From the NCBI GenBank assembly GCA_022340185.1, contig JAJDOK010000032.1, positions 23,188-87,187 of the forward strand: a DNA stretch of 64,000 nucleotides. The letters run 5' to 3'. Positions 23,601 through 24,894 of the stretch are shown piece after piece. This stretch comes from Salaquimonas sp. Lineage in GTDB: Bacteria; Pseudomonadota; Alphaproteobacteria; Rhizobiales; Rhizobiaceae. A program made the position numbers and the translations under genes. The first letter of the stretch is position 1; each line of letters begins with the position of its first letter. The notes below the pieces were generated by a model that worked only from the letters and a program-made list of their open reading frames with translations, was not told the origin of the DNA and ran no database searches.

Positions 23601-23732
23601 CATTTCGACAACCGGAACGAAACCGGCGGCAAGAATGCGAAGCGGCCGGAGAGGTCCCGCCCGATCGATCCGGATTCACCCTTCGCTAAGCTGGCGCAGT
23701 TGAAGGCCGAACTCGAAAAACGCGATGGCTGA
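20652..23732 (+). CDS. SUV3-like helicase-related protein
   Basis: VLGPTNTGKTHLAIERM Walker A, AIDEVQLAADPERGHVFTDRLM, ATDAIGMGLNLDLDHVAF, MGQIAGRAGRH. Confidence 0.92.
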   Translation: MASSVSSRPSADGRGVLAVLGPTNTGKTHLAIERMVAHSSGLIGLPLRLLAREVYERVAEKVGVANVALVTGEERINADGKARFTVSTVEAMPDQTDAAFVAIDEVQLAADPERGHVFTDRLMNLRGREETMLLGAATIQHALQNLLPGVDVITRPRMSMLTWAGQKKITRLPQRSAIVAFSTDEVYAIAELIRRQRGGAAVVLGSLSPRTRNAQVQLYQSGDVDFLVATDAIGMGLNLDLDHVAFAQDRKFDGFSQRRLTPAEMGQIAGRAGRHIRNGTFGVTGQVPPFDDELVERLETHNFDPVKVLIWRNRNLSFASLEDLRASLEAASDSRLLMKSFPAPDLVALANLARDAEIAGLCNAETDIRLLWDVCQIPDYRKISPGEHAGLLGNVFVDIARLGRIREDWFARQVAMTDRTDGDIDALSARIAHVRTWTYLSHRDGWLEDAAHWQEATRQIEDRLSDALHESLTKRFIDRRTSVLMKRLRENAMLEAEISSEGDVVVEGHHVGHLMGFRFTPDSAASGPDAKAATGAAMKALAAEIAKRAERLGAAPNGDIALGADATLRWIGEPVAKLTAGDDTLHPRVVLLADEQLTGAPREAVANRLERWVANHITTLLKPLIDLSTDEALTGMARGLAFRLVEALGVLDRRDVASDVQALDQNTRAGLRRHGVRFGAYHIFIPALLKPAPTELIGLLWGLKKGDTDIPGLAELPAMLAAGRTSFPAEAGIDREVYRLCGFRLLGPKAVRIDILERLADLIRPALAWRPGADAPPSGNIPDGAVDGRSFIATPAMLSILGATHEDMELILKGLGYSGETRPEAEVLAMLPKPAAPEAPASAAEGDAVEAATPAEPAAEPPQQSAEEAVQQTAETETAAETRPAAEAVSATEEAPGIGEATPSEAAPDTEAGVQAPSEEAEPLKTITLWRPARHGRRDEGRRDDRSTRNARQRAQHADGQHDGQHRNKHRGNGPKKGPGKGKHFDNRNETGGKNAKRPERSRPIDPDSPFAKLAQLKAELEKRDG

Positions 23733-24117
23733 CGCTGCCGCGGGCGAAAGCTCCATTCGGTTGGACAAATGGCTTTGGCACGCCAGGGTGGTGCGCACCC
23801 GCACACTGGCAAAAAAGCTGGTCGAGGCCGGCAAGGTCCGGCTGAACCGCGCCAAGGTCCATTCGGCCAGCCACGGTGTCAGAGTGGGCGATGTTCTGAC
23901 CATCGTCCTGCCGCGCGCCGTTCTCGTTTACGAAATCGTCGGCATTGCCGAACGCCGTGAATCGTTTGCAGAGGCGAGCAAACTCTATGTCGATCTCAGC
24001 ACGCCGTCGGACGCACCCGAATCTGGAACAACCAGACCACCCGACGCACCCAACCTCAAACGCCCCGAAGGCCGCGAGCGGCGCCTGGCGCGTCGCCTTG
24101 CCGGCAAACCTGGGTAA
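23725..24117 (+). CDS. S4-domain RNA-binding protein (Hsp15-like)
   Basis: SIRLDKWLWHARVVRTRTLAKKLVEAGKVRLNRAKV. Confidence 0.92.
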   Translation: MADAAAGESSIRLDKWLWHARVVRTRTLAKKLVEAGKVRLNRAKVHSASHGVRVGDVLTIVLPRAVLVYEIVGIAERRESFAEASKLYVDLSTPSDAPESGTTRPPDAPNLKRPEGRERRLARRLAGKPG

Positions 24118-24289
24118 GCGCTACCTCAAGTCGCGCTTTTCGTGGGTAATTCGTTCTTGAAGCACCGGTTTAAAAGTTTTACCGACTTGTCGCGTTTGCA
24201 TCCTCCCCGGAGCGAAGAGCTTTTCCAGTGAATATTGGATCATTCTGACGGAGCGAATTTGTGACAAGATCAAGGAAAGGCCCGCAGGG

Positions 24290-24471
24290 CGTATCGGTTG
24301 ATACGGCCAAGGGGATTTTCGCCGATATTGGCGCCAAAGCGCCCGTCCCTCCGGGTTTCCGATTGTCGGGCACGCGAACCCGGATGTTTCCGGGTTCGGT
24401 CCCAAGCGAATCCAGATCGGGCGCACTCGATCTGGGGTGGCGAACCGGTCTTGCCCGATGCGAAGGCATCG
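24290..24471 (+). other. Cluster of five perfect-stem hairpins upstream of fdxA
   Basis: Hairpins 24290-24305, 24330-24343, 24375-24398 (10 bp), 24412-24435 (8 bp), 24456-24471 (6 bp, GAAG loop). Confidence 0.7.
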
Positions 24472-24552
24472 CGCTGTACCCGTTTCACCACCGGCTCACA
24501 CGCGCCAATCGAGAAACGGAATTGACCTAATGCTCACTGGAAGCGCTTTAAA

Positions 24553-24894
24553 ATGACCTACATCGTCGATGACAAGTGCATTAAGTGCAAATACATGGAC
24601 TGCGTGGAAGTCTGCCCGGTCGACTGCTTCTACGAAGGTGAAAACATGCTTGTCATTCACCCCGACGAATGCATCGACTGTGGTGTCTGCGAACCCGAAT
24701 GCCCGGCAGAGGCGATCAAGCCGGATACCGAGCCGGGTCTTGAGAAGTGGCTCCAGCTGAACGCCGAATACGCCGAGAAATGGCCGAATATCACGGTCAA
24801 ACGGGACCCGCCCGCCGATGCCAAGGAATTCGACGGCGTCGAAGGCAAATTCGAGAAATATTTCTCGGCCGAACCGGGAGAAGGCGATTCCTGA
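24553..24894 (+). CDS. fdxA: Ferredoxin FdxA (7Fe-8S type)
   Basis: [55 protein letters not shown]. Confidence 0.97.

Follow-up and report, generated by a model that had tools for sequence, protein, structure and literature searches.

A probable IS630-type MITE with a conserved fold between the ribosome-binding site and start codon of fdxA in Salaquimonas sp.

The window analysed here, a 64,000-nucleotide stretch of a Salaquimonas sp. contig, contains a 435-nt intergenic gap between a gene for an S4-domain protein (ending at 24117) and fdxA (starting at 24553), and the question raised by this gap is why it should hold five perfect-stem hairpins. A first-pass annotation, made from the sequence alone, had recorded these hairpins within 24290-24471, had seen no convincing gene around them and had suggested either a structured leader or non-coding RNA, or a mosaic of palindromic repeats. 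All five hairpins were found at the positions given (Table 1), and the absence of a convincing gene was borne out: Pfam gave no match to the five ORFs tested from the gap, and no frame is conserved among the related copies described below. The segment 24230-24530 folds better than its dinucleotide shuffles (z = −3.7 on the plus strand and −4.6 on the minus strand, 0 of 100 shuffles as good). The hairpins do not, however, constitute the unit. This is instead a single non-coding insertion of 336 bp (24215-24550), not a hairpin array, and our sequence comparisons allow us to propose with good confidence that it represents a non-autonomous IS630-type MITE. Such an element would have entered a TA that lay between the fdxA ribosome-binding site and start codon, and its fold is probably conserved by selection.

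The insertion upstream of fdxA and its parts

We compared the S4–fdxA gap, or the region upstream of fdxA, with that of same-genus genomes, leaving out G002, in which the orthologous gap was not identified. The element is absent upstream of fdxA in G001, G003, G004 and G005, and in all four a ribosome site, CGGAG, immediately precedes the fdxA ATG. In the window the element separates this native CGGAG from the ATG, and the only Shine-Dalgarno-like string remaining before the start codon is a GGAAG within the right terminal repeat; pairing of that repeat in the terminal helix P1 would mask it. Because the element lies between the apparent promoter and the ATG, it probably makes up most of the fdxA 5′ UTR in the source genome.

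Table 1. Features of the S4–fdxA region of the window (feature, coordinates, strand, basis or remark)
Feature	Coordinates	Strand	Basis or remark
S4-domain RNA-binding protein gene	23725..24117	+	Upstream neighbour of gap; Pfam
Putative native fdxA promoter, TTGAAG-N16-TTACCG	24157..24184	+	Similar in G001, G003, G004
Native fdxA Shine-Dalgarno, CGGAG	24208..24212	+	Adjoins left side of element; comparison with G001, G003, G004, G005
Whole element with terminal dinucleotides	24215..24550	+	Ends from alignment of 61 full copies
Left terminal inverted repeat with inner extension, 5′ strand of P1	24216..24246	+	Consensus helix 1
Arm A (GACGGAGCG ... CCGTC), tip is hairpin 1	24247..24347	+	Consensus helices 2-4, alignment to model
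Hairpin 1, CGTATC/GATACG	24290-24305		Inverted repeat confirmed
Hairpin 2, GGCGC/GCGCC	24330-24343		Inverted repeat confirmed
Tiny junction hairpin, CC-TCC-GG	24348..24354	+	Consensus helix 5; loop tally, usually CCTTCGG
Arm B, tip is hairpin 5, contains 60-nt insert	24355..24517	+	Consensus helices 6-10, alignment to model
Hairpin 3, CGAACCCGGA/TCCGGGTTCG	24375-24398		Inverted repeat confirmed
60-nt extra insert with hairpins 3 and 4	24378..24437	+	BLAST gap, alignment, insert comparison
Hairpin 4, CCAGATCG/CGATCTGG	24412-24435		Inverted repeat confirmed
Hairpin 5, CGATGC/GCATCG	24456-24471		Inverted repeat confirmed
Right terminal inverted repeat, 3′ strand of P1; contains GGAAG 24539-24543	24519..24549	+	Inverted repeat, alignment, consensus fold
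fdxA-type ferredoxin gene (Fer4, DUF3470)	24553..24894	+	Begins 2 nt past element; Pfam

Family copies are approximately 265-280 nt long (mostly 273-278) and run from CTA/GAGC at the left end to GCTC/TAG at the right (CTAGAGC...GCTCTAG), with duplication of the TA and unrelated flanks beyond. The window copy, scored by the covariance model at 186 bits over 24214-24551, has its terminal inverted repeat at 24218-24242 and 24523-24547; its right end is the expected TA (24549-24550) and its left end reads AA (24215-24216) where TA is expected. No open frame is common to the copies and their lengths are not multiples of three, which, together with the lack of Pfam matches, rules out a protein-coding repeat.

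In G001, BLAST found the parts 24216-24377 and 24438-24527 at several loci with 83-89% identity and without the intervening 24378-24437; the matching pieces break at query position 228 and restart at 289, as expected from the 60-nt insert. Hairpins 3 and 4 thus lie in extra sequence that is missing from most copies. Hairpin 2 is incidental, with no conserved pairing and with arms that pair elsewhere in the family consensus fold, leaving hairpins 1 and 5 as the only conserved parts among the five.

Comparable modules of 60-87 nt, each comprising two hairpins and a short linker, were also seen in copies L037 (from G048), L081, L087, L109 and L124 (Rhizobium). They usually occupy the junction loop; that of the window copy is in arm B, a different place from that in the G048 copy. 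The window and G048 modules are alike, with GA-TGTT-TC and GA-CGTT-TC loops and CAGATCG..CGATCTG. Deletion forms keep the ends, the smallest being a 59-bp hairpin (G001:C283:1233-1291), and some composites have two left-type ends, inverted relative to each other (L135:4022-4568, 547 nt; L143:730-890, 161 nt).

Dispersal, target sites and co-resident IS630 elements

The source genome carries three divergent copies and the congener G001 about eight, and copies occupy many unrelated genomic places. Isolates that hold several copies include Rhizobium alvei, R. oryzicola and Stappia. Covariance-model matches were obtained in 68 of 298 genomes sampled from the order, 37 of 385 from the class and 29 of 399 from the phylum, 17 of the last being outside Alphaproteobacteria. 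A pattern derived from the conserved part of the window copy retrieved 111 stretches from public genomes. Those fitting the family are from Alphaproteobacteria (several Rhizobium, Stappia, Kiloniellaceae, Rhodovibrionaceae and many MAGs); the few single pattern matches in other phyla do not fit the family and were dismissed as chance. The carriers outside Alphaproteobacteria include plasmids of Azotobacter chroococcum and Pseudomonas aeruginosa, on which the element is unannotated. Copies from other classes have the same shape and a common core (GACGGAG ... GGCCCGTCCCTTCGGGTTG), and a profile blind to structure also recovers them, some strongly and the Pseudomonas-like ones weakly. Many MAG contigs end within the element (L065, L071, L101, L108, L111, L131 and others), and it is probable that near-identical copies interrupt assembly and that the copy numbers are too low. 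No Rfam family scored above its gathering threshold for the window, alphaproteobacterial or other-class copies, the only matches being weak sub-threshold foldbacks, and we found no description of the element in the open full-text papers searched.

Taken together, the element has the general attributes of a MITE: it is short, non-coding, multi-copy and dispersed, has terminal inverted repeats and a TA duplication, and is matched by an empty site in relatives. IS630 elements favour CTAG sites and duplicate the TA. Amongst 61 full copies, 40 retain TA at both ends, and CTAG is present at the left end of 30 and at the right end of 40. By crude ORF calls, the upstream gene apparently ends with the TAG of the left end in about one quarter of the copies examined, as would be expected if the element targets CTAG. 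Carrier genomes also harbour IS630 (DDE_3) elements of 1052-1087 bp that end in TAGAGC or TAGAGT repeats; in several of them TTGRRTC occurs at the offset that it has in the MITE-like element. Five IS630 copies share with the element the TAGAGC-type start and the layout, and not the complete repeat; no IS630 was found that closely matches the terminal repeats of a given element beyond this outermost TAGAGC and layout, and a pattern search of G001, G052 and two Stappia genomes returned no IS-length pair bearing the element's own repeats. From the ends, the target sites and the co-resident IS630 copies we infer that an IS630-family transposase would act in trans, recognising the TAGAGC... repeats and moving the element into TA sites, preferentially CTAG. 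The window copy itself is probably old, given its decayed left TA, the three divergent copies in its genome and the finding of no DDE_3 gene in the 84%-complete assembly, and it is possibly immobile.

IS630 copies with TAGAGC ends and a transposase in two frames (HTH and DDE) were noted at L196:204-1290, L199:2-1059 and L190:977-2028. In L294:2501-3920, from plasmid NZ_CP066311.1 of Azotobacter chroococcum, the right CTAG end of an element copy coincides with the insertion point of an IS630 whose ends are TAGTGT, an arrangement that looks as if element ends act as landing sites. We rejected this IS630 as a partner because its ends differ; it merely sits at the CTAG end.

Conservation of the fold

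The consensus fold, computed with RNAalifold from 49 aligned copies, is a three-way junction closed by P1 (the terminal repeats, about 30 bp), from which arm A, arm B and, between them, a tiny CC-GG hairpin extend. It contains 94 pairs, 64 of them with compensatory change on both sides, a number reached in none of 500 shuffles; in arm A, 19 of 36 pairs show such double-sided changes. Paired cells amount to 95.6%; shuffling the 3′ letters lowers this to 82.3%, and sliding the partners by one to three columns to 34-41%. The terminal repeats vary among genomes (for example GTTTCCACCCAATG, ATGTTTTGGCTAGATAG and CCTTTCATGGCTTG), yet are complementary within each copy. In 33 copies that played no part in defining the fold (median identity 49%), aligned by sequence alone but selected by a covariance model that rewards pairing, 82.2% of cells are paired versus 58.1% after shuffling.

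Conservation extends to bases outside the helices. In the 33 divergent copies the unpaired A100 is kept in 31, C187 and T188 in 32 and G111 in 30, and internal loops persist across divergent genera: G56 opposite A117 is unpaired in most copies, and the CTTG at 187-190 is likewise retained. Element length and the junction are maintained across classes. Since pairing has been kept through paired mutations despite wide sequence change, it is probably the fold as such that counts, and its retention by selection is also probable, for the conserved unpaired bases are not what pairing correction by template switching would yield.

Whether the fold is that of RNA or of single-stranded DNA is a point on which the evidence conflicts. 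G-U outnumbers A-C mismatches in 43 pair columns against 26 (p = 0.053), chiefly in arm A, which weakly favours the plus strand as RNA, while folding energy favours the minus strand, which gives the better RNA fold in 36 of 49 copies. The covariance model matches on both strands and the junction loop fits either molecule, as UUCG in RNA or, on the opposite strand, as GAA, a stable DNA triloop. The window copy has no promoter-like site on the plus strand and no terminator-like site.

Competing explanations and known systems

In the account we favour, the element is gene-less and its ends pair as P1 to close the three-way junction, as the covariation shows. The fold would be selected most likely for the element's own persistence, acting in single-stranded DNA while the element transposes, or in RNA upon read-through from neighbouring genes. 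Within this account, a sub-case that we consider rather unlikely is that the element spreads as DNA and works as RNA, with a transcript that binds a host or transposase protein and a mobility that depends on this RNA. The weak plus-strand preference for G-U, the frequent C(UUCG)G junction hairpin and the conserved unpaired motifs would suit it, but the strand preference is not significant, the model matches both strands and the window copy lacks a plus-strand promoter-like site and any terminator-like site. Less probable still is that the element is an ordinary MITE and its inner pairing a by-product of mutation, with template switching copying changes between the arms of inverted repeats without any selection. 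This would account for changes that are mainly from one Watson-Crick pair to another with few G-U or A-C intermediates, and for terminal repeats that are at once the most variable and the best paired portion; template switching should, however, erase mismatches, and the internal loops (G56/A117, CTTG 187-190, A100, G111) persist, as do length and junction across classes.

The two possibilities raised in the first-pass annotation fared worse. A cis-acting leader or riboswitch evolved for fdxA regulation would be in keeping with strong folding and with a position between a promoter-like stretch and the ATG, but the orthologous leaders of four same-genus genomes lack the element, the remaining copies are found at many unrelated loci and the insertion splits the native Shine-Dalgarno from its ATG. 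We therefore reject a dedicated leader, which is missing in relatives and contradicted by the dispersed copies, and attach almost no probability to it; the suggestion was right in that the sequence is structured, as the compensatory pairing changes indicate, and wrong as to its origin. A mosaic of short palindromic repeats independent of one another, of the REP or BIME kind, is just as hard to credit. Several separate palindromes are visible and the 60-nt insert resembles a separate module, but the parts travel as one 265-280 nt unit in fixed order, with terminal inverted repeats, long-range pairing and a single fold common to several genera. The strongest hairpin, moreover, is not dispersed in the source genome.

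MITE interiors are usually regarded as decaying IS remnants. In this element the interior has been maintained as a single specific fold at about 50% identity and below, across classes, by carriers that make up from about one tenth (class) to about one quarter (order) of sampled genomes, and the question thereby raised, why a gene-less transposon needs a complex fold, is testable. A broader reading, possible but more doubtful than not in our estimation, is that these mobile elements form a phylum-wide class not described before, whose functional cargo is the fold (a three-way-junction RNA or single-stranded DNA), selected across Alpha- and Gammaproteobacteria, with terminal repeats re-matched to the IS630 transposase of each host. 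The covariance model offers an annotation tool for a repeat at which assemblies break and which may be mistaken for ORFs, and the fdxA locus is a case of a mobile element replacing the leader of a conserved gene.

Among the closest parallels is RUP of Streptococcus pneumoniae, a 107-bp MITE driven by IS630-Spn1, with 9-bp repeats and confined to one species (PMC2229807). Both are non-coding and use a TA target, and RUP has terminal repeats similar to those of its resident IS630 (PMC2229807), a similarity seen for the present element in the outermost TAGAGC and the layout; no conserved internal fold is reported for RUP, whereas the present element is about 275 bp, with a 30-bp stem, a covarying three-way junction and a phylum-wide distribution. 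Correia/NEMIS elements of Neisseria likewise have TA at their ends and terminal repeats of about 24 bp, and their transcripts are known to fold by pairing of 5′ and 3′ ends and to be cleaved by RNase III (PMC2229807, PMC10969869), but they are confined to Neisseria and, as those papers describe them, form a stem-loop without the three-way junction. CIR, the methyltransferase-associated intergenic repeats of Caulobacter and Brucella, are about 110 bp with a conserved GANTC in the loop and resemble the element in being alphaproteobacterial and intergenic, with TA at the ends and two arms (PMC2229807). CIR lack an end-to-end stem such as P1, and GANTC is present in 26 of 49 element copies, below shuffled expectation; membership was rejected on length, the P1 stem and the unconserved GANTC. 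IS630 elements themselves share TAGAGC-type ends, the TA/CTAG target and many carrier genomes with the element, and differ in size (1.05-1.09 kb), in encoding a transposase and in their subterminal sequence. An IS630-type MITE is thus of a kind already known; its conserved internal fold is unexpected.
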